Below are positions 3,963-49,896 of a stretch of DNA of 64,000 nucleotides, in pieces (the stretch's first letter is position 1; each line of letters begins with the position of its first letter). Location: assembly GCA_002279935.1 (NCBI GenBank), contig NCCZ01000002.1, positions 186,001 through 250,000 of the forward strand. The letters are read 5' to 3'. The DNA is from Hyphomicrobium sp. 12-62-95. Lineage in GTDB: Bacteria > Pseudomonadota > Alphaproteobacteria > Rhizobiales > Hyphomicrobiaceae. Under the pieces are notes generated by a model that worked only from the letters and a program-made list of their open reading frames with translations, had not been told where the DNA came from and ran no database searches. The translations under genes were made by a program, and so were the position numbers.

Positions 3963-4955
3963 ATGGCGCGCAAGATTGCCGTTTTATTCGTGCACGGGAT
4001 CTACAATAGCAGCGACACATTCCACGAGCCCATGCGGGAGCGGCTGGACAAGGCGCTGCCGAAGGCGCTGCGGCCCTTTGTGGACTACGAGGCGGCGAAC
4101 TGGGCGCCGATCGTCCGGCGGCACCAGTCGGCCTACATGGACAAGCTGATCGGCGAGCGTCTCGTCGACGACAATTCCTATCGCTGGATGGCACTGCAGG
4201 GGCTCGGCGACGCGGCGGCCTATCAGAAGACGCGCAACTGGCGCAACTCGGCCTACTACGAAATCCAGCACACCGTGCGCGCGGCGGTTGACCGGCTGGA
4301 TCAGCGGGGCGATCCCGACCGCCCGCTCGTGTTCATCGGGCATTCGCTGGGCTGCCACATCCTGTCGACGTTCGCGTGGGACACGTACACCATGCGGCGG
4401 ATCATGCAAAACCGCGAGCAGGACGGCGATACGAAGATGCAGGAATTCGCCGCCTACATGCGCGAAGGCTCGCCGTTCCGGCGGCTGGAGACGCTCGCCG
4501 GGTTCGTGACCATGGGCTGCAACATGCCGCTGTTCACCTTCACCTTCGGCCCGGACAAGATCGTGCCGATCACGCAGGGGCGCACGCCGAACGATCATCC
4601 GGCGTTTCCCGGCATGGGTCTTGGCGCAAATGTGAAAGTGAAGGCCCGGTGGCTCAACTTCTACAGCCGCAACGATCTGCTCGGATTTCCGCTGAAGCCT
4701 TTGAATGGTGCATACGCGGCTGAGCCGCGGATTTCCGACATTCCCGTCGTGTCGGAGGGGCGATTGAAGCGGATTTTGTGTTCGCCGTTTCCCGCGCTCG
4801 CCACATACGCCGCGCACACGGGCTACTGGACGCACGGGCGAGTCGTTCGCGACACGGCGGCGTTACTCACCGACATCATCACCGCGGATGATCCTGCGCC
4901 GCCTCCACGCCGCCTCTTCCGCCGCGGCGGCGCACGGGTGGCGGAGACGGTGTGA
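3963..4955 (+). CDS. Alpha/beta-hydrolase-like protein of unknown substrate
   Basis: The 330-residue protein begins MARKIAVLFVHGIYNSSDTF, where VLFVHGIYN is the first-strand and oxyanion-loop motif of alpha/beta hydrolases. The nucleophile elbow is GHSLGC near residue 138 (VFIGHSLGCHIL). A later FYSRNDLLGFPL stretch may supply the acid, and AHTGYW near the C-terminus a histidine. There is no signal peptide, so it is probably cytoplasmic. The ATG at 3963 is preferred to upstream starts because homology-like sequence begins there. It stands alone, divergent from thiG and convergent with the next membrane gene. Function beyond a serine-hydrolase fold is not visible. Confidence 0.7.
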   Translation: MARKIAVLFVHGIYNSSDTFHEPMRERLDKALPKALRPFVDYEAANWAPIVRRHQSAYMDKLIGERLVDDNSYRWMALQGLGDAAAYQKTRNWRNSAYYEIQHTVRAAVDRLDQRGDPDRPLVFIGHSLGCHILSTFAWDTYTMRRIMQNREQDGDTKMQEFAAYMREGSPFRRLETLAGFVTMGCNMPLFTFTFGPDKIVPITQGRTPNDHPAFPGMGLGANVKVKARWLNFYSRNDLLGFPLKPLNGAYAAEPRISDIPVVSEGRLKRILCSPFPALATYAAHTGYWTHGRVVRDTAALLTDIITADDPAPPPRRLFRRGGARVAETV

Positions 4956-4961
4956 TGGGGC

Positions 4962-5369
4962 TCAGTCCTCCGGCCAGCGGTAGAGGAAGGTGAGGAAGAA
5001 GAGCGCGATGTAGATGGCGAGGAACGCCAGTGCGCCGAGACAGGCGGCGGCTTCATATTGGGTGAGGCCGAGGGCTTCGATGGGGGCTGAGCCGAAGCCT
5101 GGAATTTCCGTCGCCGTCTTGCCGATTTTCGACCACGCGCGTTCGGTGCCGAGCATGAGTTCGTGGATGCCGATGGTCAAGGCGCCCATGAAGGCGAGGC
5201 CGAACGAGAAGACGATGAAGGACAGCGTGCGCAGGATGAGCGGGGCGCGCTTCAAAAACAGCCACAGACCGACGATGTAGGCGGAGACCATCCCGAACGA
5301 GACGGAGACGACCGACACGACGATGTCGGTCAGCTCGTTGCGGACGGAGAGGATGTCGGCTTCGGTCAT
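4962..5369 (-). CDS. Small membrane protein downstream of a cation exchanger
   Basis: This unrecognised 135-residue protein (from ATG 5369) has about three hydrophobic segments: near residues 15-37, 45-67 and 108-130. The last ends in FFLTFLYRWPED. A TTG at 5381 overlaps the exchanger's stop codon and could be an alternative start, which would couple the two translationally. The close packing on the same strand suggests co-transcription with the exchanger gene and perhaps an accessory role. I recognise no catalytic or ion-binding motif. Confidence 0.65.
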   Translation of the reverse strand: MTEADILSVRNELTDIVVSVVSVSFGMVSAYIVGLWLFLKRAPLILRTLSFIVFSFGLAFMGALTIGIHELMLGTERAWSKIGKTATEIPGFGSAPIEALGLTQYEAAACLGALAFLAIYIALFFLTFLYRWPED

Positions 5370-5377
5370 GTTTGCTC

Positions 5378-6475
5378 TCAAGGTACGGCGGACAGGAAGA
5401 GAAATACGCCGAGGATGACGAGATGGACGGTGCCTTGCAGGATCGTCGTGCGGCCGGTCGCGAGCGTCACTGTGCCGATGAACAGTGAGAGCACCAAGAG
5501 CGCCATTTCTTCGTGGTCGAGGCCCAATTGAAGCGTCTTGCCGGACATGAGCGCGAAGGCGCTGACGGCGGGGATCGTCAGGCCGATGGTGGCCATGGCG
5601 GAGCCGAGTGCGAGATTGAGGCTCGTCTGGAGGCGGTTGGCGGCAGCGGCGCGGACGGCGGCCATGCCTTCGGGCATTAGCACGAGGGACGCGATAACGA
5701 CGCCGAGGAAGGCTTTGGGTAAGCCGGCATCGGCGATGGCCGCTTCAAGTGCGGGCGACAAGGTCTTCGCCAGCAGGACGACGCCCACCAGCGATAGGAG
5801 AAGCAGAGCAACGCTCAATGCGGTGGTGCGCGCGCGTGGCGCATCGTGCAGGGGAAGCTCCTCACTCACATCGGCGAGGAAGTAATCACGGTGACGGATG
5901 GTTTGAACGAATAGGAACACCCCATAGAGAACAAGGCAGGAGAGGCTGACGAAGATGAGCTGGGCGGAGTTGTAGTTCGGCCCGGTTGTTGTCAGCGTGT
6001 AATTCGGCAGAACGAGCGTAATGGTCGCCAGCGTGCCGAGTACGCTCAGCGCGGAGCTGGCGGCCGTGGTCTGGAACGTCTGTTCGCGATGTTTGAGACC
6101 GCCGACGATGAGGCAGAGGCCGATGATGCCGTTCAGCACGATCATGACCGTGGCGAAAACGGTGTCGCGGGTGAGAAATTCGCTGCCGGCCTTGGCGCCC
6201 ATCAGGATCGAAATAATGAGGGCGACTTCAATGACGGTGATGGCGACGGCCAGCACGATGGAGCCGAAGGGTTCGCCGACTTTAAGGGCGATGATTTCTG
6301 CGTGATGGACGGCGGCGAAGACGGCGCCGGCGAGGAGCACGGCGGCCAGCGCGAGGACGAGACCGTTTTCAGCGGGAACAATGTGGGCGAATTTCAAAAC
6401 CAGCAGCACAGCCGCGGCGACGGGGGCGAGCCAGGCCCAATGCGGCAGCTCGTCAATGTTGTGGTTACCGGCCAT
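5378..6475 (-). CDS. chaA: Calcium:cation antiporter (CaCA family, ChaA-like)
   Basis: An inner-membrane exchanger of about 365 residues with roughly eleven hydrophobic segments. Two repeat regions carry the family's ion-binding motifs: VGEPFGSIVLAVAITVIEVALI in the first half (near residues 65-86) and LMPEGMAAVRAAAANRLQTSLN in the second, each with an acidic residue in a membrane helix. The layout and length fit ChaA, which expels Na+, Ca2+ or K+ in exchange for protons. A GTG at 6502 is also in frame; I prefer ATG 6475, which follows an AGGGAA-like ribosome site. A small membrane gene follows immediately. Ion preference cannot be read from sequence. Confidence 0.85.
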   Translation of the reverse strand: MAGNHNIDELPHWAWLAPVAAAVLLVLKFAHIVPAENGLVLALAAVLLAGAVFAAVHHAEIIALKVGEPFGSIVLAVAITVIEVALIISILMGAKAGSEFLTRDTVFATVMIVLNGIIGLCLIVGGLKHREQTFQTTAASSALSVLGTLATITLVLPNYTLTTTGPNYNSAQLIFVSLSCLVLYGVFLFVQTIRHRDYFLADVSEELPLHDAPRARTTALSVALLLLSLVGVVLLAKTLSPALEAAIADAGLPKAFLGVVIASLVLMPEGMAAVRAAAANRLQTSLNLALGSAMATIGLTIPAVSAFALMSGKTLQLGLDHEEMALLVLSLFIGTVTLATGRTTILQGTVHLVILGVFLFLSAVP

Positions 6476-6600
6476 ATTCGCTGCGTTCCCTGCCCTAGAC
6501 ACACTCTGGGCCGGATGCCCCCCCGCCCTGGTCTTATCCAGCGTTGGCCGAGCGAGCCGTCAAGCAAAAGCTTGTGATGTTGCGATTTTCAAACCAGCGC

Positions 6601-7242
6601 TCAGGCCGGCGGACACACAGCGCCCGTGGCGGCCCAGGCTTTCATGAGTTCGCCAAATGCGGCTTGCGTGCCCGGAACCGGTGTGCGGTTGCCGCCGGGG
6701 TTCCATCCCCAGCCGACGAGCGTATCTTCGGCCATGTGGGTGACGATCTGCTCGAGCGTTTTGCCGCCGTTGCGCTTGGGATCTTTGATCTGTTCACAGA
6801 TCTCTCCCAGCGACTTTCCTTCCCAGGCCATTTCGATCGGCGCCAGATGCCAGAGCGGGTGACCTGAAACGCCCGCTGGCTCGAAGTTCTTGTCACGATG
6901 GCAGGTCATGCAGCGCATGGCGGTGGAGCCAAGGTTGTCCTCGCCGCGCACGACGAGTTGCGCATGGGGATGCATGTCATTGCCCTGCAGCGGGCGATTG
7001 CCGGCCGGATGACAATTGATGCAGCGGGGATGCTGGATCACGGCGCCAGCTTCGCGAAAGAGCGCAACGGATTTTTCGGCCGGATCGGAAATGGAGTTAA
7101 ACGCGGCGGCCGGCTTCAGCGTTCGCGCCTCGATCGGTGCGCCCGCATGCGACGCTGAGACGATGAACAGTCCGACGAGAAGCGGGCACGCCAACGCCGA
7201 GATCATCGCTATCAAACCCATGCGCATGTGCGGATACCCCAT
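6601..7242 (-). CDS. Exported di-haem c-type cytochrome-like protein
   Basis: The product of about 213 residues has an N-terminal membrane/signal segment ([19 protein letters not shown], ending near SHAGA). It carries two haem c attachment motifs, CINCH near residue 76 and CMTCH near 113. Several methionine/histidine positions, such as DMHPHAQ and GHPLWHLAP, could be axial ligands. It should therefore be a periplasmic electron carrier or part of a periplasmic oxidoreductase. Several in-frame ATGs (7242, 7227, 7221) compete as starts. It is not obviously in an operon, lying between the exchanger and a palindrome-rich gap. The partner enzyme is unknown. Confidence 0.75.
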
Positions 7243-7336
7243 CAAACCAGTCCGGGCTCAACGCATCCGGAGGGCAATGGGTTCCCTTGGCTAAACGTGA
7301 CGGAGGTGAGCGCGGCATGCACGCATCCTCGCCGGT

Positions 7337-7460
7337 GTCATCCCGGGCTTTATGCCCGGGACCCATCGGGCCGCATATGGTGGCGCGCGTCGCAACAGAA
7401 CGTCGTGCCAACGCAAGTCCGCACCTGCTGAACAATGGGGGGGACAAGCCCCGGGATGAC
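7337..7460. repeat. Intergenic palindromic element (GTCATCCCGGGC type)
   Basis: The left arm GTCATCCCGGGCTT (7337-7350) is matched by an inverted right arm ending CCCGGGATGAC (7446-7460), with one bulged base. The left arm also forms its own local hairpin (CCCGGGC at 7342-7348 with GCCCGGG at 7354-7360). The arms and the 95-bp centre resemble non-coding repeats scattered through genomes of this order. It lies in the 354-bp gap between the cytochrome and the carboxynorspermidine synthase gene. ORFs drawn across it look spurious. Confidence 0.7.
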
Positions 7461-7534
7461 AGCGGAGTGGCGGGGATGAGCGGTGGGCATGGCGGCTCGA
7501 CCACGCGCGGAGTTGAGCGGGGTGCATGCATACT

Positions 7535-7574
7535 CTCTCCCCGTACGCCGCGCCATGCGCGTCTACGGGGAGAG
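7535..7574. repeat. Second inverted repeat, possible terminator of the following gene
   Basis: CTCTCCCCGTA (7535-7545) pairs with TACGGGGAGAG (7564-7574) around an 18-base GC-rich loop. It starts about 20 bp beyond the stop codon of the minus-strand gene at 7597. It may end that transcript, although no T-run follows, or it may be another genome-wide palindrome. Confidence 0.55.
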
Positions 7575-7596
7575 GGGACTCACAAGCGACCCGCGC

Positions 7597-8811
7597 TTAG
7601 GTCTTCACTTTGAACAGGTCTTCCTGGTCGGACTTTTTGAGGTCTTTGATGTGCCAGGGGAGGCCGTGGTCGCCGATGGCATCCATGAAGGGTTTGGAGG
7701 GGAGCTGCTCGACGTTGAAGACGCCTTTGCCCTTCCATTCGCCCTTGAACATCATCATGGCGCCGACGACCGGCGGAACGCCTGTCGTGTAGGAGACGGC
7801 TTGGGCGCCGGTTTCCTTGAACGCCTGCTCGTGGTGGCAGACGTTGTAGATCATGGTGATCTTCTTCTTGCCGTTCTTGGTGCCCCGGAAGATGCAGCCA
7901 ATCGACGTCTTGCCGGTGTAGCCTTTGCCCAGCGACGACGGAGGCGGGAGAAGCTCCTTCAGGAACTCCATCGGGATGACCGGATTGCCCTTGTACATGA
8001 CGGGATCGATGCGCGTCATGCCGACGGACTGCAGCACATCAAGGTGCTTGATGTAGTTGTCGGAGAACGTCATCCAGAAGCGGATCTGCTTCAGACCCTT
8101 GATGTTCTTCACAAGGCTTTCTTCTTCCTCGTGATAGATGAGGTAGGACTTGCGCGGGCCAACTTCCGGATAGTCGATCATCGCGGAAATCGTCAGCGGA
8201 TCGATCTCGATCCACTTGCCGTCTTTCCAATATTTGCCGCGCTGCGTGACTTCGCGCAGGTTGATCTCGGGATTGAAGTTGGTGGCGAACGACTTGCCGT
8301 GGCTGCCGTCGTTGCAGTCGATGATGTCGATGGTTTCGATTTCGTCGAACAGGAATTCCTGCGCGTAGGCGCAATAGATGTTCGACTGGCCGGGGTCGAA
8401 CCCGCAGCCCAGCACGGCCATGATGCCGGCGTCCTTGTACTTCTTGTGATACGGCCACTGCCACTTGTAGGTGAACTTCGCCTCATCGCGCGGTTCGTAG
8501 TTGGCGGTGTCCATGTAGTGCACGCCGGCTTCGAGGCAGGCGTCCATGATGGGCAGGTCTTGATACGGCAGCGCCATGTTGATGACGAGGTCGGGCTTGA
8601 CCTTCTTCAGGAGCTTCACGGTCTCCTTCACGTTGTCGGCGTCGACCTGCGAGATCTCGATCGGCGTCTTGCAGCGCTTGGCGACGGCTTCGCAGCTGGC
8701 GATCCGGCGCGAGGCCAGATGCACCTTCTTGAACACGTCGCGGTTCATCGCGCACTTCTGCGCCGTGACGGAGCCGGCGGCCCCGGCGCCAATGATGAGA
8801 ACGCTGTCCAA
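7597..8811 (-). CDS. Carboxynorspermidine synthase-like (saccharopine dehydrogenase family)
   Basis: The 404-residue protein has an N-terminal dinucleotide-binding loop, VLIIGAGAAGSVTAQKC (residues 4-20). A core typical of the saccharopine dehydrogenase family follows (DLVINMALPYQDL, MDTANYE, GCGFDPGQSN). The length and motifs fit carboxy(nor)spermidine dehydrogenase, which condenses aspartate semialdehyde with a diamine using NADPH to make polyamines. The start is TTG at 8811, supported by GGAGG about ten bases upstream and by the fact that the Rossmann strand begins right after it. The usual partner, carboxynorspermidine decarboxylase, is not in this window. A true lysine-pathway saccharopine enzyme is a less likely alternative. 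Confidence 0.85.
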   Translation of the reverse strand: MDSVLIIGAGAAGSVTAQKCAMNRDVFKKVHLASRRIASCEAVAKRCKTPIEISQVDADNVKETVKLLKKVKPDLVINMALPYQDLPIMDACLEAGVHYMDTANYEPRDEAKFTYKWQWPYHKKYKDAGIMAVLGCGFDPGQSNIYCAYAQEFLFDEIETIDIIDCNDGSHGKSFATNFNPEINLREVTQRGKYWKDGKWIEIDPLTISAMIDYPEVGPRKSYLIYHEEEESLVKNIKGLKQIRFWMTFSDNYIKHLDVLQSVGMTRIDPVMYKGNPVIPMEFLKELLPPPSSLGKGYTGKTSIGCIFRGTKNGKKKITMIYNVCHHEQAFKETGAQAVSYTTGVPPVVGAMMMFKGEWKGKGVFNVEQLPSKPFMDAIGDHGLPWHIKDLKKSDQEDLFKVKT

Positions 8812-8997
8812 GTTTCTAATCCTCCGAATGAAGAGACCGACGCATCACGTGCCAAGGCACGCGCCCTGGCGGTGTTGGTCGCCAGAGCGTGCGCACTTAG
8901 GGTACTTGAATGTCAAATACAATATGATTTGGCTGCGCATAGATCATGCGTCGATTGCAACGACGTTGCCATAGCCCAACGCAGCCGGGCGTCCCGG

Positions 8998-9342
8998 TCA
9001 GTCGCTGTCGGCGCCGCGGATACCGCGGGTGGTGTAGATGACCCAGGCGCCAGCGAGGGCGGCGCTGACCAGCGCCCAGCCGACCAGGCCCTGAATGCCC
9101 CAGGTCCAGACTGCGAAAACCAGGATCCCGATGTAGCTCAGCATGACGGCCAGCGCCTTGTCCTGCTCGCGGCGCTCCTGACGCTCGGCGGCGGATTGAG
9201 CGGGGGTCTTGATCTTGGCGACTGCGGCGGGGGCGGCGATGGCGGATTCAAAGGTTTTTGGATCGTGCAGCATCTGGCGACTTTTCCCAGTTGGACACGC
9301 CCTTCGATCCGGCCTGCCCTGTTCCTCAACGGGAGCCATCAC
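8998..9342 (-). CDS. Small membrane protein, unknown
   Basis: An unrecognised protein of up to 114 residues, or about 91 if the internal ATG at 9273 (MLHDPKTF) is used. It has an alanine-rich stretch, a charged segment (SAAERQERREQDKA) and two membrane segments near residues 67-83 and 86-103, and it ends TTRGIRGADSD. The N-terminal part before residue 24 looks unlike coding sequence, so the shorter form is plausible. It is divergent from purE. No function can be proposed. Confidence 0.5.
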   Translation of the reverse strand: MMAPVEEQGRPDRRACPTGKSRQMLHDPKTFESAIAAPAAVAKIKTPAQSAAERQERREQDKALAVMLSYIGILVFAVWTWGIQGLVGWALVSAALAGAWVIYTTRGIRGADSD

Positions 9343-9500
9343 GGTACCGCTCCCAGGCTTTTAACTGTGGGGAAGTCTGATCTAGCGCAACGTGCGACCT
9401 ATGCGACCTGTCGGCACGCCGGAACTCCCCGTAGCGCTTGTAAACCCGTAAAATATCCACTAGACCCGCCGCTTTCCTGCGGGAGCTGACCGAAAGAACA

Positions 9501-9995
9501 ATGGCTAAAACCTCCCCCCTCGTCGGCATTATCATGGGTAGCCAGTCCGACTGGCCGACCATGAAGGCGGCTGCCAACATGCTGGCCGACCTCGGCGTGC
9601 CCTATGAGGCCAAGATCGTTTCGGCCCACAGGACGCCAGACCGGCTCGCGGATTACGCCAAGTCGGCTAAGGACCGGGGCTTACAGGTCATCATCGCGGG
9701 GGCGGGCGGGGCGGCGCATCTGCCGGGCATGACGGCGTCCATGACCTCGCTGCCGGTGTTGGGCGTGCCGGTTCTGACCAAGACGCTGAACGGTGTCGAC
9801 AGCCTCTATTCCATCGTCCAGATGCCGGCCGGGATTCCGGTCGGGACTCTGGCCATCGGCGAGGCTGGGGCGACCAACGCCGGGTTGCTGGCGGCGCAGA
9901 TCCTGGCTCTCCATGATGAGGCCCTGGCGGCGCGCATCGAGGCGTTCCGGGCCAAGCAGACCGCGTCGGTTGCCGAGACGCCTAAGGATGCGTGA
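9501..9995 (+). CDS. purE: N5-carboxyaminoimidazole ribonucleotide mutase
   Basis: Converts N5-CAIR, made by PurK, to CAIR in purine synthesis. The 164-residue class I PurE shows the substrate loop [13 protein letters not shown] (residues 9-21, with the serine and aspartate that hold the phosphate and ribose), SAHRTPDRL with the catalytic histidine near residue 44, and [11 protein letters not shown] near 72. It starts nine bases before the end of a short A-rich leader (GAAAGAACA). purK begins nine bases after its stop, so the two are one operon. Confidence 0.97.
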
Positions 9996-10004
9996 GCGTT
10001 CGCC

Positions 10005-11090
10005 ATGACCGCGCTGCCGCCCGGCTCCACCATTGGTATTCTTGGTTCGGGCCAGCTCGGGCGCATGCTGGCGCTTGCCGCTGCACGGCTCGGGTTCAAG
10101 TGTCATATCTATTCCGACGTGGCGGGGCCGGCGTTCGATGTGTGCGACGCGCATACGGTGGCGCCGTATGATGATCAAGCGGCGTTGACGGCGTTCGCCA
10201 CGTCGATCTCGGTGGCGACCTACGAGTTCGAGAACATACCGGTCGCGACGGTGGAGTTTCTCAACGCAATCGTGCCCGTGCGTCCCGGCGCCAAGGCGCT
10301 GGCGTGCGCGCAGGATCGCATCAACGAGAAGACGCTGGCGCGCCAATTAGGGGCTGAAACAGCTCCTTTTGCGCAGGTCGATAGCCGCGCGGATCTCGAC
10401 CGGGCTCTCAAGGAGATCAGCGTTCCGGCGGTGTTGAAGACGCGCCGGTTCGGCTACGACGGCAAGGGGCAGGCGAAAATTCTTACGCTGAGCGATGCGG
10501 ACGCGGCGTGGGCGGCCATGCGCGATCAGCCATCGATCCTGGAAGGTTTCGTGACGTTCGATCGCGAAGTCTCGGTGGTGGCGGCGCGGTCTCTCGATGG
10601 CGCGTTCCGGGCGTTCGAGGTGACGGAGAACGAGCACCGCAACCACATTCTGCACCGGTCGGTTGCGCCGGCGGGCATGGAGGCGGAGGCGGCCACGGAG
10701 GCTCTGGAGACCGCACGGCGGATCGCTGCGGCGCTCGACTACGTCGGCGTGTTTGCGATTGAATACTTCGTGGTGACGGCGGGTGGGCGCGAGCACGTCT
10801 ATGTCAATGAGATGGCGCCGCGGGTGCACAACTCCGGACATTGGACGATGGATGGCGCTGAGACCTCGCAATTCGAGCAGCACATTCGCGCCATTGCCGG
10901 GTGGCCGCTGGGGTCGACGCGCCTCAAGGCGGCCGGGGCGGAGATGATCAACCTGATTGGGGACGATATCCTGGCCTGGGACCGGATCGCGGCGGAGCCG
11001 GGTGCGTTCCTGCACCATTACGGCAAGACCGACGTGCGTCCTGGGCGGAAGATGGGGCACGTCAACCGGCTCAGGGCGAAGGATGCGTGA
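10005..11090 (+). CDS. purK: 5-(carboxyamino)imidazole ribonucleotide synthase
   Basis: ATP-dependent carboxylation of AIR with bicarbonate to N5-CAIR, feeding PurE. The 361 residues are the usual size for this ATP-grasp enzyme. Visible blocks are IGILGSGQLGRMLALAA (residues 8-24), TYEFENIP near 74, the ATP-binding KTRRFGYDGKGQA near 146, and the metal-binding region VNEMAPRVHNSGHWT near 268, which is diagnostic for PurK. It follows purE closely. The 195-bp gap to rpsU after it holds no feature that I can name. Confidence 0.97.
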   Translation: MTALPPGSTIGILGSGQLGRMLALAAARLGFKCHIYSDVAGPAFDVCDAHTVAPYDDQAALTAFATSISVATYEFENIPVATVEFLNAIVPVRPGAKALACAQDRINEKTLARQLGAETAPFAQVDSRADLDRALKEISVPAVLKTRRFGYDGKGQAKILTLSDADAAWAAMRDQPSILEGFVTFDREVSVVAARSLDGAFRAFEVTENEHRNHILHRSVAPAGMEAEAATEALETARRIAAALDYVGVFAIEYFVVTAGGREHVYVNEMAPRVHNSGHWTMDGAETSQFEQHIRAIAGWPLGSTRLKAAGAEMINLIGDDILAWDRIAAEPGAFLHHYGKTDVRPGRKMGHVNRLRAKDA

Positions 11091-11285
11091 GGCTCTCAGT
11101 TGTATGAGCCCGACAGGTGGTCGCGCCGGTGTTTATCCCCGGTGGAGAGATGGACAACTCGGATTTCCTTTGTTAAAAGCCGCCTCACGAAACACACCCG
11201 GGGCTGCTGGGCGAACAATCGCTCGCGGCGTCGGTTCTCGTTTTTCTTAACCAGATCAACCTGATACCAGCAGAGGTTCAGTCTC

Positions 11286-11627
11286 TTGCAAGTTCTCGTT
11301 CGCGACAACAACGTCGACCAGGCCCTCAAGGCGCTCAAGAAAAAGATGCAGCGCGAGGGTATTTTCCGTGAGATGAAGCTGCGGAACTATTTCGAAAAGC
11401 CCTCCGAAAAGAAGGCGCGTGAGAAGGCGGAAGCCGTTCGCCGCGCCCGCAAGCTGGCTCGTAAGAAGCTGCAGCGCGAAGGCCTGCTGCCGTCCAAGCC
11501 CGTCGTTGCGCGCGGCGGTCCGGGCGCTAAGGGTCCGGGTGCCGGTGGCGGCCGTTCGTCGGGCGGCGGCTTCGGCGGCGGTGGTAGCGGCGGATTTGGT
11601 GGCGGTGGTTCGTCGTTCGGCGGCTAA
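11286..11627 (+). CDS. rpsU: 30S ribosomal protein S21 with glycine-rich C-terminal tail
   Basis: The first ~70 residues ([20 protein letters not shown] onwards) are a standard bS21, the small basic protein of the 30S platform near the anti-Shine-Dalgarno region of 16S rRNA. The start is a TTG at 11286, chosen because the conserved N-terminus begins exactly there and an AGAGG site lies just upstream. The protein is 113 residues against a usual 65-80. The extra 40 or so are almost only glycine, serine, phenylalanine and alanine in GGGF/GGGS repeats, like RNA-binding or disordered tails. It is a single gene followed by a clear terminator. Confidence 0.95.
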
Positions 11628-11653
11628 TCCAGCCTGACATCAAGTTTTCAGTT

Positions 11654-11685
11654 GGGCCGTGCGGGAAACTGCGCGGCCCTTTCTT
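11654..11685 (+). terminator. Rho-independent terminator of rpsU
   Basis: GGGCCG (11654-11659) pairs with CGGCCC (11674-11679), extended by GC pairs inside the loop and followed by TTTCTT. It lies 27 bases after the rpsU stop codon. Confidence 0.8.
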
Positions 11686-11697
11686 ATGCCCGCAGCT

Positions 11698-12537
11698 CTA
11701 GGGCGCGATAGCATTCGATCCGGCCGTTTTGGACGGGAATTGGGTGGCAAGCCAAGCGTAGATTTTATCGTAGGAGCCGAAGAGATAGTGGTCGGAATGG
11801 CCGGCGCCGGGGAACGTTGCGCGCTGGACAGGGCCTTTTAGGGCGGCGGCGACATCGGCGCTCATGGAAACGGGAATGATATCGTCGGCTTCGCCGTGGA
11901 CGATCAGCGTGGGTGCCGTGACCTTGCCGGCGAATTTGAGCGTTTCGTATCGGTCGGTCATGAGCCAACGGGCCGGCAAGTGGGGGTAGTGAAGGAAAGC
12001 AAGGTCAACGATGGAGGTGTAGGGGGCGTCGAGGATGAGGCCGGCCACGTCTTTTTCCGCTGCCACCTGAACCGCGATGCCGCTTCCGAGCGACTCGCCG
12101 TAGAGCACGATCCGGTTGGCCGAGATGCCGCTGGCGCGCACGGCTTCATAGACCTCTTTCGCATCGGCGACGTTGGCTTTTTCATTGGGCGACCCGGTGC
12201 TGCCGCCGAAGCCGCGATAGGTCATCATCACGACGCCGTAGCCATGAGTGATGTATTTGCGGATGCGCTCGGAGCGCGTGACGAACGAGCCGCCGTTGCC
12301 GTGGAAATAGAGCAATGTCGGGCGTCCCGGCTGGGCCGCACCCCACCACGTGAGTATGCGCGTGCCATCGCGCATGACCAGTTCGCGTTCGTCCACATTG
12401 GAGAGGCCGGCTTCAGCGGGCGATGTGCGGCGCGTGTCAGGCGCGTAGAGCAGGCGCTGCTGGATGGCTTGCGCGCCAAAGTGGACGAGCAGGGCGAGGG
12501 CAAGGAGGAGGCCCAGTCCTTTGAGTGCAATCATCAT
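11698..12537 (-). CDS. Membrane-anchored alpha/beta hydrolase (Bem46/ABHD13-like)
   Basis: A protein of about 279 residues with one N-terminal membrane anchor (GLGLLLALALLVHFGA), followed by a serine-hydrolase domain. The oxyanion region is LLYFHGNGGSF, then TYRGFGGSTGSP, the nucleophile elbow GESLGSG, the acid within HGEADDIIP and the histidine in GAGHSDHY. This order matches the Bem46/ABHD13 group, whose substrates are mostly unknown. A TTG at 12552 could add five residues. It is convergent with rpsU and not in an evident operon. Confidence 0.8.
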   Translation of the reverse strand: MMIALKGLGLLLALALLVHFGAQAIQQRLLYAPDTRRTSPAEAGLSNVDERELVMRDGTRILTWWGAAQPGRPTLLYFHGNGGSFVTRSERIRKYITHGYGVVMMTYRGFGGSTGSPNEKANVADAKEVYEAVRASGISANRIVLYGESLGSGIAVQVAAEKDVAGLILDAPYTSIVDLAFLHYPHLPARWLMTDRYETLKFAGKVTAPTLIVHGEADDIIPVSMSADVAAALKGPVQRATFPGAGHSDHYLFGSYDKIYAWLATQFPSKTAGSNAIAP

Positions 12538-12630
12538 CGGATGCTCGATCAATCCCGGAACTGTCGGGTTATCGCGACCTCAGACGGGCGTTGCAATCCG
12601 CAAAACCGCACGGGGACAGGAGCAGCTGTT

Positions 12631-13218
12631 TCAGCGCAGGCCTTCGGCCAGGACTGGGGGCGGAGGGGGTGTGAAGCCCGCAGGCTCGGCGATGTTTTCC
12701 TCGGAAGGATCATCGAAGCAGGCAAGCAGGCGCTGCGAGCGCAGTGGGCCCGGCAGGTGGCCAAACGCGGATCCGCGGCTCACCGCGATGTAGGGGGAAA
12801 ACGCTTCGACGTCGGCGCGCGTCAGAGAGCCGTCCTTGCGCCCGACCTTGATGGCGTAGCAGTCGGCTTCATTTTCGCTCGTCTGCGTCGGATAAAAGAC
12901 GTGGCCGAGGATGTGATGCGCGCATTCGTGGTTGAAGAAGAAGACCTGCAGTTTGTCTGGCAGCGTGTCGAGTCGACGCTTGTTCAAGGTGATGATCGGC
13001 ATGCGGTTGACGATGCGGGCATGGGCGACATCGCCCAGATCATCCATCTGGATGGAGCGAACCGTCTGGCCGCGAAAGTCGCGGCAGGTCAGTTCCTGGC
13101 CACCAAGATGGATGCGCGCTTGAAGACCGCCCGATGTATTGGCGCTGGCTGTCCCGAGGAATCCGAGACCGCATAGTGCCGCCAGAGACAACAGGACCCG
13201 CCGGGTGGCCCACTGCAT
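12631..13218 (-). CDS. Exported HExxH-type putative metallopeptidase
   Basis: A protein of about 195 residues with a signal peptide (RRVLLSLAALCGLGFLGTASA). Around the middle it has HECAHHILGH followed 16 residues later by SENEADCYAI. The first gives the zinc-binding HExxH; the second gives an ExxxD-type segment as in gluzincins such as M48, where the glutamate is the third ligand. The C-terminus is proline-rich (FTPPPPPVL). I place the start at ATG 13218, which has GGGAG at good spacing. It is shorter than known M48 enzymes, so it may be a minimal periplasmic peptidase or a degenerate relative. I do not recognise a named family. Confidence 0.6.
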   Translation of the reverse strand: MQWATRRVLLSLAALCGLGFLGTASANTSGGLQARIHLGGQELTCRDFRGQTVRSIQMDDLGDVAHARIVNRMPIITLNKRRLDTLPDKLQVFFFNHECAHHILGHVFYPTQTSENEADCYAIKVGRKDGSLTRADVEAFSPYIAVSRGSAFGHLPGPLRSQRLLACFDDPSEENIAEPAGFTPPPPPVLAEGLR

Positions 13219-13397
13219 GCACATCTCCCTCGCTGGAGGCCGCGCGGCGGCCATCTTCGCTCAGACGCTGACATGAGGCTAACGCGGATTCCCTCCGCCG
13301 TGGATCAAAAAATATGTCAGCCTTATTGCAGTGTGAAATTTGGCCGTGGATGTCGACCTAACAAAACAATTTACCGGGCTGCGAAAGGTTCCGACCC

Positions 13398-13426
13398 AAA
13401 AAAGGCCCCGCCGGTCGGGCGGGGCC
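13398..13426 (-). terminator. Rho-independent terminator of the pnt operon
   Basis: On the minus strand a nine-base stem (GGCCCCGCC, complement at 13404-13412 and 13418-13426) is followed by six T residues (complement of the A run at 13398-13403). It lies about 30 bases after the pntB stop. Confidence 0.88.
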
Positions 13427-13454
13427 TATCGTGTTCGTCAGGACCGCGAAAAGG

Positions 13455-14876
13455 TCAGCCGTGCGCCAGGGCTTTGGCGATTTCTTCGGTGACTTTCTTG
13501 GCGTCGCCGAGAACCATCACGGTGTTGTCGCGATAGAACACGGGATTGTCGATGCCGGCGTAACCCGAGGCGAGCGAGCGCTTGTTGAAGAAGACGGTAG
13601 AGGCCTTCCACACTTGCAGCACGGGCATGCCGTAGATGGGCGAGGTTTTGTCGTCTTCGGCGGCAGGGTTGACGACGTCGTTGGCGCCGATGACGTAGAC
13701 GGCGTCGGCCTGGGCGAATTCAGAGTTGATATCTTCCAGTTCGAAGACTTCGTCGTAGGGGACGTTAGCTTCGGCAAGCAGCACGTTCATGTGGCCGGGC
13801 ATACGGCCAGCGACCGGATGGATGGCGTACTTCACTTCGACGCCGGCCTTCTTCAGCTGATCGCCCATTTCGCGCAGCGCATGCTGAGCCTGGGCGACCG
13901 CCATGCCGTAGCCGGGGACGATGATAACCTTGGAGGCGTTCTTCAGGACGTAAGACGCGTCTTCGGCCGAGCCGAGCTTGACCGGCTTCTGTTCGCCGCC
14001 GCCGGCACCCGCTGCCGCCGTTTCGCCGCCGAAGCCGCCGGCGATGACGGAGAGGAACTGGCGGTTCATGCCCTTACACATGATGTAGGACAGGATGGCG
14101 CCCGAGGAGCCGACAAGCGCGCCGGTGATGATGAGTGCGATGTTGGAGAGCGTGAAGCCGATGCCTGCGGCCGCCCAGCCGGAGTAGGAGTTCAACATCG
14201 AGACGACGACGGGCATGTCGGCGCCGCCGATGGGGATGATGATGAGCACGCCGAACAGAAGGCTGGCGGCCACGATGAGCCAGAAGAGCCACGACGAGCC
14301 GCCCGACTCCATGAACCAGTAGATCAGCACGATGATGAAGATGCCGAGCGCGGCGTTGATGAGGTGGCGCAGCGGCAGGATGATGGGTTTGCCCGACATC
14401 TTGCCCGAAAGCTTGGCAAACGCGATCACAGAGCCGGTGAAAGTGATGGCACCGATGGCGACGCCGAGGGCCATTTCAAAGAGGCTGGCGGCCTTGATGC
14501 CCATCGCGGGATCAGCGGGATTTTCGAGAATGCCGAATGCTGCTGGGGCGTAGAGTGCGCCGGCGGCCACGAACACGGCCGCGAGACCCACGAGCGAGTG
14601 AAACGCCGCGACGAGTTCGGGCATCATGGTCATGGGGATTTCGCGCGCCGTCTTGGCGCCGATGAACCCGCCGATGCCGAGGCCCGCGAGGATCAGGATC
14701 CAGGAGATGAAGGAGGGCTGCGCCAGACCCAGCGTGGTCAACACAGCGATTGCCATACCGATCATGCCGAACAGGTTGCCCTGCCGCGACGTTGCCGGGC
14801 TCGAAAGACCGCGCAGGGCGAGGATGAAAAGGACACCTGCTGCGAGGTAGAGGAGGGCTGCTAAATTCGCGGACAT
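13455..14876 (-). CDS. pntB: NAD(P) transhydrogenase subunit beta
   Basis: Membrane and NADP(H)-binding subunit of the proton-driven transhydrogenase that makes NADPH from NADH. The 473 residues begin with about nine transmembrane segments carrying part of the proton channel. The soluble domain III lies near residues 290-473, with the NADP-binding fingerprint VPGYGMAVAQAQH and the family stretch YDEVFELEDIN near the end. It is last in pntAA-pntAB-pntB, all on the minus strand, and is followed by a strong terminator. Confidence 0.97.
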   Translation of the reverse strand: MSANLAALLYLAAGVLFILALRGLSSPATSRQGNLFGMIGMAIAVLTTLGLAQPSFISWILILAGLGIGGFIGAKTAREIPMTMMPELVAAFHSLVGLAAVFVAAGALYAPAAFGILENPADPAMGIKAASLFEMALGVAIGAITFTGSVIAFAKLSGKMSGKPIILPLRHLINAALGIFIIVLIYWFMESGGSSWLFWLIVAASLLFGVLIIIPIGGADMPVVVSMLNSYSGWAAAGIGFTLSNIALIITGALVGSSGAILSYIMCKGMNRQFLSVIAGGFGGETAAAGAGGGEQKPVKLGSAEDASYVLKNASKVIIVPGYGMAVAQAQHALREMGDQLKKAGVEVKYAIHPVAGRMPGHMNVLLAEANVPYDEVFELEDINSEFAQADAVYVIGANDVVNPAAEDDKTSPIYGMPVLQVWKASTVFFNKRSLASGYAGIDNPVFYRDNTVMVLGDAKKVTEEIAKALAHG

Positions 14877-14930
14877 CGGCTCACTTCCGGAACGGTATCG
14901 GGTTTATGTGGAGACAAGAACAGGCGGGGC

Positions 14931-15326
14931 TCACTTCTTGGGAGCCGGTTCCTTCTTCTTGTACATGGCAAGCATGCGGTTGGTGACGAGAAAGCCACCG
15001 AAGATGTTGATCGACGCCATCACGAGCGCGAGGAACCCGAACAGCTTGGCGAGGATGCTATCGGCTTCGGTCAGCGCCACGCCGACGGCGAGGAGTGCGC
15101 CGACCACGATCACCGAGGAGATCGCGTTGGTGACGCTCATCAGCGGCGTGTGGAGTGCTGGCGTGACCGACCAGACGACGTAGTAGCCGACGAAGACGGC
15201 AATCACGAACACCATCAGTTCGTAGACAACGGGGCTCACCGTGTCGGGGCCGCCGGCTGCAAAGGCCGCTGTGGGGGCTGCCGCAAAGAGGACGGCCAGG
15301 GCCACAAGGTTCAGAATGGAACGCAT
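14931..15326 (-). CDS. pntAB: NAD(P) transhydrogenase subunit alpha part 2
   Basis: A small membrane subunit of 131 residues, the middle piece of the split alpha chain found in alphaproteobacteria. After an N-terminal hydrophobic, signal-like segment come three membrane helices: [38 protein letters not shown] and a final one ending in [16 protein letters not shown]. The sequence [19 protein letters not shown] is strongly conserved in the family. It sits between pntAA and pntB with short gaps, as expected for one operon. Confidence 0.95.
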
Positions 15327-15368
15327 CGTTTCGTCTCCTGCCCGCGCGGGACGCGGGCGTTGATAGCG

Positions 15369-16502
15369 TCAGTTTCCGGTGAGGTTGGGATGGACGATCT
15401 TGCCGTCCTTGGCGACGAGCGTGCCTTTCACGATATCGTCGTCCCAATCGATCTTCAGCGCCTTTTCCTTCTTGTCGATGAGGACTTCGAGGAAGGCGAG
15501 GAGGTTCTTGGCGTAGAGGCTCGAGGCGTTGACCGCCACCGTGCCGGCCAGATTGATCGGGCCGGCGATGGTGACGCCGCCGACATCCACGGTCTGGCCG
15601 GGGACGGTCAGTTCGCAGTTGCCGCCGCGCTCAGCGGCGAGATCGACGATGACTGAGCCCGGCTTCATGCTCTCGACCATTGCCTTGGTGATGAGGCGCG
15701 GGGCGGGGCGGCCGGGGATCAACGCGGTGGTGACCACGATGTCTTGGATCTTAATGTGGTTGGCGACCAGTTCGGCCTGCTTGGCCTGATACTCAGGCGA
15801 CATGGGCTTGGCATAGCCGGCAGCCGTCTGAGCCTGCTTGAACTCATCATCCTCGACGGCGACGAACTTGGCACCGAGCGACTGCACCTGTTCCTTCGTG
15901 GCCGGGCGAACGTCGGTCGCCGAAACGATGGCACCCATGCGGCGCGCGGTGGCGATGGCCTGAAGGCCGGCAACGCCGACACCCATGATGAAGATTTTGG
16001 CTGCAGGCACGGTGCCGGCGGCCGTCATCATCATCGGCAGCGCCTGACCGAACATCGAGGCCCCATCGACGACGGCCTTGTAGCCGGCGAGGTTGGCCTG
16101 CGAGGACAGGACGTCCATCGACTGCGCGCGGGTGATGCGCGGCATGAATTCCATCGAAAAGAGCGTGGCGCCACGGCCAGCCGCCGATTCGAGGCCCGGG
16201 CGGTCGTTGAAGGGCTCGATCATGGCGGCCACGATCGCGCCGGGCTTCAGGGCTGCCAGTTCTTCCGGCGACGGGCGGCGGACCTTCAACAGAATGTCCG
16301 CGCCGTTGATCGCGGCGGCGGCGCCATCGACGATCTCGGCACCTTGCGCTTTCAGCAGCTCATCAGAGAACCGCGAGCGCAGGCCGGCTCCCGACTGAAC
16401 TTTCACCGCCGCGCCCAGCGCGACGAGCTTCTTGACCGTTTCCGGGGACACGGCGACGCGCGGTTCGTCCGGCCCCTCCGCAGTAACAGCAATCGTGATC
16501 AT
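15369..16502 (-). CDS. pntAA: NAD(P) transhydrogenase subunit alpha part 1
   Basis: The NAD(H)-binding soluble domain of the transhydrogenase, 377 residues. It resembles alanine dehydrogenase, with the Rossmann loop IFIMGVGVAGLQAIATARRMGA near residues 165-187 (written here in part) and ATDVRPATKEQV after it. The N-terminal KEGPDEPRVAVSPE-like start (here TAEGPDEPRVAVSPETVKKL) is typical. It heads the pnt operon. A tiny cytochrome oxidase subunit IV gene lies 155 bp upstream on the same strand. Confidence 0.96.
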   Translation of the reverse strand: MITIAVTAEGPDEPRVAVSPETVKKLVALGAAVKVQSGAGLRSRFSDELLKAQGAEIVDGAAAAINGADILLKVRRPSPEELAALKPGAIVAAMIEPFNDRPGLESAAGRGATLFSMEFMPRITRAQSMDVLSSQANLAGYKAVVDGASMFGQALPMMMTAAGTVPAAKIFIMGVGVAGLQAIATARRMGAIVSATDVRPATKEQVQSLGAKFVAVEDDEFKQAQTAAGYAKPMSPEYQAKQAELVANHIKIQDIVVTTALIPGRPAPRLITKAMVESMKPGSVIVDLAAERGGNCELTVPGQTVDVGGVTIAGPINLAGTVAVNASSLYAKNLLAFLEVLIDKKEKALKIDWDDDIVKGTLVAKDGKIVHPNLTGN

Positions 16503-16657
16503 GGAGATTCCCGAATGCGCAACGCGGCCGGAGCCGCGTCACCGATTTATAAGATGACGCAGGAGGTGATCGGCGATGCCGGTCCGGCACCGCCGCCGTC
16601 GTGGGACGTTCCGCTCCGTGGGGAGGGAACGCGGCCCTTTCGTGCAGGATCTGGCCG

Positions 16658-45061: not shown

Positions 45062-45583
45062 TTACCGCCGCTTGGCCGGGAGAGGATGGAGCTGCGGAAT
45101 GATGGCGGCGGCCAATTGGAGGTGTTCGGAAATGACGCCGCGCAGTTTGCCTATCTCCCCGGCAACTGCCCGCAACTTGGGCGCGGGCCCCTGTACGAGG
45201 ATCACTTCGAGGGTCTTTTCGCCCGTCAGGTGAACGTGCAGGGAGGAGATGACTTCATCGATGTAGCGGCGTTGGAGATCGGCTAGCCGTTGCTGCAAAC
45301 CGCCGACCGTGTGGTCGTAAAACAGGGTGATGGTGCCGACCATAACATCCTCGCCCTTGTCGCTCTTCGTTTCGACGAGCGCGCGGTGGACGAAGTCGGC
45401 AACTGCTTGAGATCGGCTCTGGAATCCGCGCTCTGTCACGACATGGTCGAGGTCGGTGAGCAGGTCTTCCGAGAGTGAGATGGTGACGCGGCTGACGGGG
45501 CCGCGCTTGACGGGATCGGTGGCCGGCGCAGACTGGCGGACTTTCGCGGATGAGCGCTTCGACCGCGGGGTTTTCGCCACCAT
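45062..45583 (-). CDS. nikR: NikR-like ribbon-helix-helix regulator with altered metal site
   Basis: The 173-residue product has the NikR plan: a ribbon-helix-helix DNA-binding domain (SRVTISLSEDLLTDLDHVV, residues 31-49, with the DNA-contact positions R32, T34 and S36) and a C-terminal ACT-like ligand domain (TITLFYDHTVGGL ... SSLHVHLTGEKTLEVI). NikR binds nickel through H76, H87, H89 and C95 (E. coli numbering). Here H116 and H118 match H87 and H89, but R105 replaces H76 and T124 replaces C95. A 30-residue basic extension precedes the first domain. ATG 45583 follows an AGGAAG site. It is divergent from the amidohydrolase operon and 46 bases from its operator. Nickel sensing is therefore doubtful. 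Confidence 0.85.
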   Translation of the reverse strand: MVAKTPRSKRSSAKVRQSAPATDPVKRGPVSRVTISLSEDLLTDLDHVVTERGFQSRSQAVADFVHRALVETKSDKGEDVMVGTITLFYDHTVGGLQQRLADLQRRYIDEVISSLHVHLTGEKTLEVILVQGPAPKLRAVAGEIGKLRGVISEHLQLAAAIIPQLHPLPAKRR

Positions 45584-45601
45584 GAGCATTCTTCCTTCAT
45601 C

Positions 45602-45616
45602 TGGCACGGTCCGTGC
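45602..45616 (+). promoter_or_regulatory. Sigma-54-like promoter for the amidohydrolase-glnT operon
   Basis: TGGCACGGTCCGTGC has the -24 GG and -12 GC elements ten bases apart, and TGGCAC is an exact consensus match; the -12 half is GTGC rather than TTGC. It points towards the amidohydrolase gene. The expected start point, about 12 bases on, is near 45628-45629. Sigma-54 use would fit nitrogen control of a glutamine synthetase. Confidence 0.5.
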
Positions 45617-45628
45617 GATGCCTCGACA

Positions 45629-45656
45629 GTATGACGATTTCCTGCAATCGTCATAC
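45629..45656. promoter_or_regulatory. NikR-type operator
   Basis: GTATGA (45629-45634) and TCATAC (45651-45656) are separated by exactly 16 bases, the spacing and sequence of the classical NikR site. The match extends further: GTATGACGATT and AATCGTCATAC form a perfect 11-bp inverted repeat around TCCTGC. It lies between the divergent nikR-like gene (46 bases away) and the amidohydrolase start (25 bases away). Confidence 0.88.
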
Positions 45657-45680
45657 CGGGTTCGATGGAGGGAGGTGCTC

Positions 45681-47848: not shown

Positions 47849-49612
47849 CTACTCGCTGCCGGCGGCGGCAACGGAGACGAAGCTGTCGCGGGCGTGCTTG
47901 ACGGCGGCCGGGTTGCGGTCGGTCGTGTAGTAGTCGCCCATCACTAGAATATCCATGTCGGTGCGGTGGAAGCAGGAGATGGCCTGCTCGGGCGAGTTTA
48001 CGACCGGTTCTTGCCGGTTGAAGCTCGTGTTCAGGATCACGGGGATGCCGGTGATCTTGGCGTATTCCTCGATGACGCCGTAGTAGCGCGGGTTGGCCGA
48101 ACGCTCGATGGTCTGGATGCGGCCGGTGCCGTCGACGTGGGCTGCAGCGGGGATCAGCGCGAGCTTATCGGGGTGGATGCGCGGGGCCAGCGTCATGAAG
48201 GGGTCGGGCTGCGTTACCTCGAAGAATTCTTTCGACCGCTCCAAGAGCACGACGGGGGCGAAGGGACGGAACGCCTCGCGGTGCTTGATCTTGGCGTTAA
48301 TGAGATCCTTGATCTTGTTGTCGCGGGCGTCGGAGAGAATCGAGCGATTGCCCAGCGCGCGCGGGCCCATCTCGGCGCGTCCCTGGAACCAGCCGACGAT
48401 CTTTTGTTCGCTCAGGTCTTTGGCAACCTTCTTCAAGAGGTCGGCTTCCTCGAACTTCTGATAGGTGAGGCCGGCCTTATCGAGCGCGGCCTTGATCTCC
48501 GCGTCGGTGAAGCCCTTGCCGTAATAGGCGTGCGTCATCTCGAAGGTGCGCGGGTTGCCGAGCGTCTGGTGCCAGTGCCAGAGCGCGGAGCCGAGCGGTG
48601 CGCCGGTGTCGGAGGCGCAGGGGGGTACCCAGACGCGTTCGAACTTGGTGTCGCGCAGGATGCGGGCGTTGGCGACACAATTGAGGCCGACGCCGCCGGA
48701 GATGACGAGATTGCGCGAGGACTGGCGCTTTTCCATATCGCGGACGATGTGGAGGATGGTCTCCTCGATCACCGTTTGCAGGGCGTGGGCCATATCGCGG
48801 TGGTGATCGGTCAACGGGTCCTTGCGCGAACGCGGGGGCCCAAAGGTTTCGTAGAACTTCCACTTGAAGGGGCGGACGAGGCCATGCGTGTCGAAGGAAA
48901 TGTAATCGCGGTTGATACGGAACTGACCGTCGGGGCGCAATTCGATGAGGTCGCGCATTTTGTCGACGTAGGTCGGCCCACCGCAGGCGGCGAGCGCCAT
49001 GACGGTGCCTTCCTCGAAGACCTTGAAGCCGAGGTACTCGGTCACGCAGGTGTAGAGCATGCCGAGGCTGTCGAAGAATTGGCTGTGCCAGACGCGTTCG
49101 AGCTTGGTGCCCTGGCCGATGTAGCCGGACGTGGACGTGTCATCGCCGTAGCCGTCCATGACGAGGACGGCGGCTTCTTCGAAGGGCGAGACGTTGAAGA
49201 CGGCGGCATGCGCATTGTGATGCGAGACCTGCACGATCTTGGGTACCTTGCGGTAGCCGTAGCGCTTGCCGAGACCGAGCCAGAGGCGGAGCGGCAGGTT
49301 GACGATGGCGGAGGCCTGGACGCGGTGGGCGCCGGGGCGGAGGAGGTTGAGGCTTCCGGGGAGCTTGCCCGTGACGTTGTTGTAGAAGGTGGGGCGGAGA
49401 CGGTCCATTTCCCACGGTGTGGTCAGGACGTCGATGTCCTCGAAGTTCAAACCGCTGTCGGCGAACAGGGCGTCGAGGCATTGGATGGGGAATTCGAGGG
49501 TATGCTTCTGGCGGTTGAAGCGCTCTTCTTCCAGGATGTAGGCGGGCGCGCCCTCCTGGAGCAGCGCGAGGCCGGTGTCATGCGACTTGGTAACGATGCC
49601 TAGAATGTTCAC
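47849..49612 (-). CDS. NodU/CmcH-type carbamoyltransferase
   Basis: A 587-residue enzyme that transfers a carbamoyl group from carbamoyl phosphate through carbamoyl-adenylate. The N-terminal half has the ASKHA-fold start NILGIVTKSHDTGLALLQEG and HHNAHAA, with the metal histidines. Later come DGYGDD and SGGVGLNCVANARI; then the C-terminal half has QGRAEMGPRALGNRSIL and NTSFNRQEPVV. I start at GTG 49612, since family proteins begin with MNILGI; ATG 49648 is possible. The gene is convergent with glnT, 12 bases apart. In this family the acceptor is usually a sugar or antibiotic hydroxyl and here is unknown. Confidence 0.92.
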   Translation of the reverse strand: MNILGIVTKSHDTGLALLQEGAPAYILEEERFNRQKHTLEFPIQCLDALFADSGLNFEDIDVLTTPWEMDRLRPTFYNNVTGKLPGSLNLLRPGAHRVQASAIVNLPLRLWLGLGKRYGYRKVPKIVQVSHHNAHAAVFNVSPFEEAAVLVMDGYGDDTSTSGYIGQGTKLERVWHSQFFDSLGMLYTCVTEYLGFKVFEEGTVMALAACGGPTYVDKMRDLIELRPDGQFRINRDYISFDTHGLVRPFKWKFYETFGPPRSRKDPLTDHHRDMAHALQTVIEETILHIVRDMEKRQSSRNLVISGGVGLNCVANARILRDTKFERVWVPPCASDTGAPLGSALWHWHQTLGNPRTFEMTHAYYGKGFTDAEIKAALDKAGLTYQKFEEADLLKKVAKDLSEQKIVGWFQGRAEMGPRALGNRSILSDARDNKIKDLINAKIKHREAFRPFAPVVLLERSKEFFEVTQPDPFMTLAPRIHPDKLALIPAAAHVDGTGRIQTIERSANPRYYGVIEEYAKITGIPVILNTSFNRQEPVVNSPEQAISCFHRTDMDILVMGDYYTTDRNPAAVKHARDSFVSVAAAGSE

Positions 49613-49896
49613 GGCGATCCCGTCCGTTGCCCGTTTGATAATCGACATGCGATACCGGGTTGCCGGCCTTTGAACCAGACCGGACGCGCGGATGTCGCAG
49701 TGTGACGGTTGGGGAGACGTCACAGTCCATTGTTGAATTCCAGCCCGGGGCGTATCTGTCCACCCGAGAGCGGCGATCACGTTAATTGCGTTCGAGTTGC
49801 AGGTGGCAATGAAGCTCGGTGTCGCGGCTGACGCGAACTGGGCGAACGTGTAGCGTTGCGACTATTCGTTAAGATGTCCGGCGGGGACCATCCGGC

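Follow-up and report, generated by a model that had tools for sequence, protein, structure and literature searches.

NikR is the textbook nickel sensor, and the locus considered here, in which a gene for a NikR-family protein diverges from a nitrogen-metabolism operon across a gap that carries an E. coli-type nik operator, raises the question of what such a protein could be doing there and whether nickel would be its signal. The window is the whole 64,000-nucleotide stretch of Hyphomicrobium DNA that was analyzed; the features on which our argument depends are collected in Table 1.

Table 1. Regulator gene, intergenic elements, and facing operon, with positions in the window
Feature	Position	Strand	Basis
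NikR-family regulator, 173 aa, His76 to Arg and Cys95 to Thr (E. coli numbering)	45062..45583	-	Pfam NikR_C, predicted fold, ligand table, tree
Sigma-54 (-24/-12) promoter motif TGGCACG-GTCC-GTGCG, facing the creatininase gene	45602..45617	+	10/12 consensus positions
Predicted 28-bp palindromic operator GTATGACGATT-N6-AATCGTCATAC	45629..45656	.	exact, unique in genome, conserved in 3 congeners
Ribosome-binding site GGAGGGAGG of the creatininase gene	45667..45675	+	direct read
Creatininase-family amidohydrolase, 255 aa	45681..46448	+	PF02633, E 1.6e-64
glnT, type III glutamine synthetase/glutamate-methylamine ligase type, 453 aa	46475..47836	+	TIGR03105

The palindrome, which reads GTATGACGATTTCCTGCAATCGTCATAC in the window, is the single exact copy of GTATGA-N16-TCATAC there, as the original prediction stated, and the 11-bp perfect inverted repeat described with it is real: all 11 outer pairs match, which is the case for just 2 of the approximately 64,000 28-mers of the window. 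When up to two mismatches are allowed, the window contains two matches to GTATGA-N16-TCATAC compared with 0.48 expected by chance. Across the 4.39-Mb genome this is the sole copy with fewer than two mismatches, and the two-mismatch matches (33 in all vs. 20 for the reversed control) resemble background noise. As had been noted, 97 bp separate the divergent genes; the gap extends from 45584 to 45680 between the ATG of the nikR-like gene at 45583 and that of the creatininase gene at 45681. The proposed identity with the half sites and spacing of the E. coli nik operator agrees with the K-12 sequence in front of nikA (GTATGACGAATACTTAAAATCGTCATAC), and the agreement with this nikABCDE operator reaches GTATGACG on each side. 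A single-protein search of genome contigs returned three congeners, metagenome-assembled genomes that are the nearest relatives, and the search for the site upstream of orthologous operons that had been proposed as a check located it in all three, with gene order unchanged and the site again in the gap. An alignment of the four Hyphomicrobium gaps reveals three conserved blocks, namely TGGCAC..TCCGTGC, the operator, and the purine-rich ribosome-binding site, and the register of the operator is kept although its flanks diverge. The predicted site adjoining the regulator gene thus has the GTATGA-N16-TCATAC form of a NikR operator, and we consider that it very probably serves the neighboring NikR-family protein as its operator.

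Upstream of the palindrome, the sigma-54 motif TGGCACGGTCCGTGCG retains the invariant GG and GC of the consensus TGGCACG-N4-TTGCW and is conserved in the congeners. The operator starts 13 bases past the -12 element, so the predicted transcription start coincides approximately with the first operator base. The genome encodes rpoN, and a sigma-70 scan of the gap found no promoter. A motif matching 10 or 11 of the 12 consensus positions faces the operon at ten of ten operators from Hyphomicrobium, Acinetobacter, two genomes of the same order as the window (G149 and G298), and one from another part of the phylum (G1088), against a background of 0.058 motifs per kb; this count is post hoc, the motif having been noticed after looking. 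The motif is absent at canonical NikR operators and at the operators of sphingomonads, and a lack of rpoN as the explanation for the latter was rejected, all of these sphingomonads having the gene. A scan of the upstream region with one simple consensus identified no NtrC enhancer above background.

The gene originally called an amidohydrolase is present and more precisely encodes a creatininase-family (PF02633) protein. The glnT product scores 644 bits against TIGR03105 (cut-off 470); among solved structures, its best relatives are a type III enzyme and, closest of all, a glutamate--methylamine ligase. Creatininase relatives encoded on plasmids all share less than 60% identity and are uninformative. 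Consistent with the earlier statement that nickel transporter and hydrogenase genes are missing from the vicinity, there is no nickel gene near the regulator, and in place of the nickel transport or nickel enzyme target of a NikR, the only site in the genome faces creatininase-glnT. A full-length urease was not found in the Hyphomicrobium genomes, which yield only partial, weak matches of up to approximately 48 residues. Immediately downstream of glnT and convergent with it lies a gene for a NodU-like carbamoyltransferase (47849-49645, minus strand) that is 89-98% identical in three of three congeners.

The regulator is the one NikR-family protein found in its genome. It matches Pfam NikR_C at 83.7 bits and passes two NCBIfam NikR cut-offs, one of them narrowly (113.4 vs. 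105 bits; 88.4 vs. 83 for the other) and one of them of equivalog level, while failing the others. Its structure is predicted with modest confidence (pLDDT 72), the best PDB matches are all NikR, and the model supports a NikR fold composed of a ribbon-helix-helix and an ACT-like NikR_C domain. To this fold are added a conserved basic N-terminal extension and a clade-specific C-terminal tail. In NikR, one subunit contributes His87, His89, and Cys95 as nickel ligands, and the next contributes His76 (PMC7055735). At positions 76/87/89/95, the Hyphomicrobium proteins read R-H-H-T, and H-H-H-C is the reading in the canonical NikRs that these searches recovered, with the exception of two canonical sequences (L019 and L045) that read otherwise in the alignment and were excluded from the tree. 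Two of the four ligands are therefore gone, and with them the square-planar Ni(II) site formed by His87, His89, Cys95, and His76'. The loss of His76 and Cys95 extends to all Hyphomicrobium species and to G149 and G298. A conserved YDH histidine in the Hyphomicrobium proteins corresponds to E. coli position 62, position 76 being Arg; since this nearby histidine is retained together with His87 and His89, some metal binding would be possible. The designation of the locus as a classical NikR system finds no support in this comparison, given the two missing Ni(II) ligands and the placement of the protein in a different clade, and even its classical half site is an exception within that clade, the members of which outside Hyphomicrobium use TATTAC half sites. 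Nickel control of the window operon is unlikely, a judgment that we draw from the lost ligands and that is strongest for the relatives.

A phylum-wide search with an alignment profile separates this clade from other NikRs: nine genomes score 198-246 bits, and other NikRs score at most 101 bits. In an unrooted maximum-likelihood tree, for which a long-branch warning applies to two Acinetobacter rows, a branch with support 100/98 separates the 16 clade members from all other sequences. Their ligand positions read Y-H-H-T in G1088, x-H-F-S in sphingomonads, G1049, and Asticcacaulis, and Q-H-Q-[IV] in Acinetobacter. Throughout the clade, the protein has a C-terminal tail bearing a Pro-[Pro/Gln]-[Ile/Leu] motif that the canonical NikRs do not show. 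The best reading of these sequences is that the clade kept the NikR fold and operator geometry and dismantled the square-planar nickel site. Residue 5 of the DNA-contacting strand (E. coli numbering; residue 34 of the window protein) is Thr in Hyphomicrobium, as it is in those canonical NikRs that were found together with GTATGA sites, and is Ser in all remaining clade members, each of which has TATTAC-type sites; we regard this apparent covariation of Thr/Ser with a TGAC/TTAC half site as suggestive only because it involves few independent changes.

Outside Hyphomicrobium, clade members have 28-bp sites of the form nTATTAC-N14-GTAATAn, with the span and register of the window site, before the transcription units of their clusters. 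With at most one mismatch, this pattern occurs at 25 sites in 13 loci and is absent from 30 Markov-simulated sets, as is its reversed version from the loci. Genome-wide, the exact TATTAC-N14-GTAATA pattern has eight copies in six genomes, all eight within the clusters, compared with two for the reversed control. A second site in G1049 lies upstream of its transporter genes. In sphingomonads, extra clade-type operators are located near TonB-dependent receptor genes that adjoin the guanidine clusters (L048:14431, L090:14489, L091:1918, and L092:11837), which suggests that the same regulator also governs a route of uptake through the outer membrane. Acinetobacter loci (L026:10249 and L027:4839) encode a NikR-like protein with almost no nickel ligands (Q-H-Q-I/V) together with allophanate hydrolase and transporter genes, and every unit there has its own operator and sigma-54 motif.

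The gene neighborhoods of the clade are of two types. In the first, found in plasmid relatives and also in four sphingomonads and G1049, the regulator accompanies a putative urea ABC transporter, UAAP1, UAAP2, and urea carboxylase and/or allophanate hydrolase; according to the title of Schneider et al. (2020), as listed in PMC12186494, such "urea metabolism" proteins act in guanidine assimilation as carboxyguanidine deiminases. The second type (G149, G298, and G1088) comprises the regulator, an ABC transporter, a creatininase 65-68% identical to that of the window, and a glnT 72-79% identical. The window operon corresponds to the second type minus the transporter. Downstream of its second-type operon, G149 carries a Guanidine-II riboswitch along with UAAP1/2, the carboxylase, and allophanate hydrolase, and linkage to guanidine genes is seen as well in the clade members of sphingomonads, Asticcacaulis, Acinetobacter, and G1049; the window operon is without such genes. 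That it might itself be a guanidine degradation operon was considered and rejected, since a different contig of this genome carries the guanidine cluster, together with Guanidine-I and Guanidine-II riboswitches. This complete guanidine assimilation cluster (C45:167501-187400, 4590-16547 of that piece, L059) is composed of a sigma-54 motif immediately before the Guanidine-I riboswitch, an ABC transporter, the Guanidine-II riboswitch, UAAP1/2, carboxylase, and allophanate hydrolase, and the Guanidine-II riboswitch is also present in the congeners. A riboswitch search of the first-type clusters of sphingomonads, Asticcacaulis, and Acinetobacter gave no match, so riboswitches are absent where the NikR-like gene belongs to the guanidine cluster itself. 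A distant pair of creatininase (43%) and glnT (53%) genes lies beside an ABC transporter gene in G079 (L106, 5105-7269); no NikR-like gene was detected in this 13-kb stretch, and the enzyme pair therefore exists also without such a regulator. The recurrence of the arrangement elsewhere and the presence of relatives in guanidine/urea clusters favor the proposal that the regulator governs a nitrogen operon, as do the shared 28-bp site layout and the sigma-54 motif abutting the site, and we regard a nitrogen-metabolism operon as the well-supported predicted target.

The site, its conservation, the clade, the ligand loss, the link to nitrogen clusters, and the promoter motif are read from sequence; from them we infer binding, repression, and an effector. 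We posit, with reasonable though not full confidence, that the protein is a nickel-independent repressor acting at a nitrogen-limitation promoter of creatininase-glnT, with a nitrogenous metabolite as the signal for its release. The sigma-54 promoter indicated by the motif would become active under nitrogen limitation, and, given a motif of this kind before the operon, an NtrC-type nitrogen-limitation activator is probably needed. The regulator, whose DNA binding is predicted from homology and co-conservation, would bind the 28-bp palindrome over the predicted transcription start and block initiation, repressing creatininase-glnT and possibly also its own divergent gene. Its ACT-like domain may bind a nitrogenous metabolite of the pathway (a guanidino, amide, or amine compound, although the effector is a guess) and then release the DNA. 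We count in favor of this explanation that the sole NikR-family gene adjoins the sole exact site and that both are kept in three congeners.

The palindrome could instead have arisen as a repeat by chance, form a hairpin in the mRNA, or serve some unrelated regulator. It does lie within the predicted 5' leader of the mRNA, where a hairpin could act; however, its half sites are identical at every base to those of a known operator, the genome contains no second copy, the register is kept while the flanks diverge, and equivalent sites accompany the regulator clade in different families of the phylum, such that we give this explanation very little credence. A more serious alternative is a working nickel sensor, in which the residual histidines bind Ni(II) and tie creatininase-glnT expression to the nickel supply. 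The identity of the half sites with those of the nik operator of E. coli, the NikR_C domain with the passing of NikR cut-offs, and the retention of His87 and His89 would all fit such a sensor, yet His76 and Cys95 are lost in Hyphomicrobium, G149, and G298, and more ligands are lost in the rest of the clade, while operator layout and nitrogen context persist. With the square-planar site dismantled, nickel is unlikely as the signal, and neither a full-length urease in the Hyphomicrobium genomes nor a nickel gene nearby was found; we therefore think this reading improbable. Slightly less probable still is a sensor of another metal (Zn, Co, or Cu), for example that of the creatininase, acting through His62, His87, and His89. 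Creatininases are metalloenzymes, and the three histidines near the old site are retained in the Hyphomicrobium proteins, but relatives with the same operator layout keep just His87 of the four NikR ligands and regulate a cluster with a biotin-dependent carboxylase, so these proteins do not have a metal signal in common.

The reading of the window protein as a nickel-independent repressor can be extended to the whole clade, although we do so only tentatively and would not be surprised if it failed. Its members may be NikR paralogues that work without a metal and use the ACT-like domain to bind guanidine or some related compound of the guanidino or amide kind. Were this so, guanidine-type nitrogen would have in them its first protein transcription factors, which would replace riboswitches in sphingomonads, Asticcacaulis, and Acinetobacter and control creatininase-glnT in Hyphomicrobium. 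A 2025 review states that guanidine-binding transcription factors remain to be found, and the clade offers a testable candidate with predicted operators. The papers that we found on guanidine metabolism do not mention a NikR-like regulator, and our literature search returned none linking NikR with the regulation of urea/guanidine carboxylase genes, which is weak evidence given that most subscription papers lay outside the search; nothing was found on an operon of the window type joining creatininase with glnT. The transporter-creatininase-glnT pathway, uncharacterized and presumably serving some nitrogen compound, deserves attention. Automatic annotation labels the clade proteins NikR or "CopG family" and would mislead users toward nickel control. 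Instead, the evidence points to an entire clade in which a metal sensor appears to have been turned into something else, with the operator geometry of NikR retained, the nickel site given up, and nitrogen scavenging as the new role.

Set against known systems, the window protein shares with E. coli NikR and its nikABCDE operator the predicted fold, the 28-bp palindrome with GTATGACG half sites, and the ribbon-helix-helix contact strand with Arg3 and Thr5 kept (RVTIS vs. RVTIT). Unlike E. coli NikR, it has lost two of four nickel ligands and has a basic N-terminal extension and an extra C-terminal tail, and instead of a nickel importer its predicted target is creatininase-glnT, which has a sigma-54 motif. 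NikRs of the same order (L022 and L023) share the half sites in their site GTATGACGAAAATACAAAATCGTCATAC; in contrast to the window protein, they keep His-His-His-Cys and adjoin CbiM/NikM-type transporter genes. The NikR-like regulators annotated as "CopG family" in the urea/guanidine carboxylase clusters of Novosphingobium, Asticcacaulis, and Acinetobacter resemble it in clade, in the span and register of the operator, and in their association with nitrogen clusters, but differ in having TATTAC rather than TATGAC half sites, Ser rather than Thr at position 5, and further loss of nickel ligands. Guanidine assimilation operons controlled by Guanidine-I/II riboswitches contain genes of similar kinds, and control there is by RNA.
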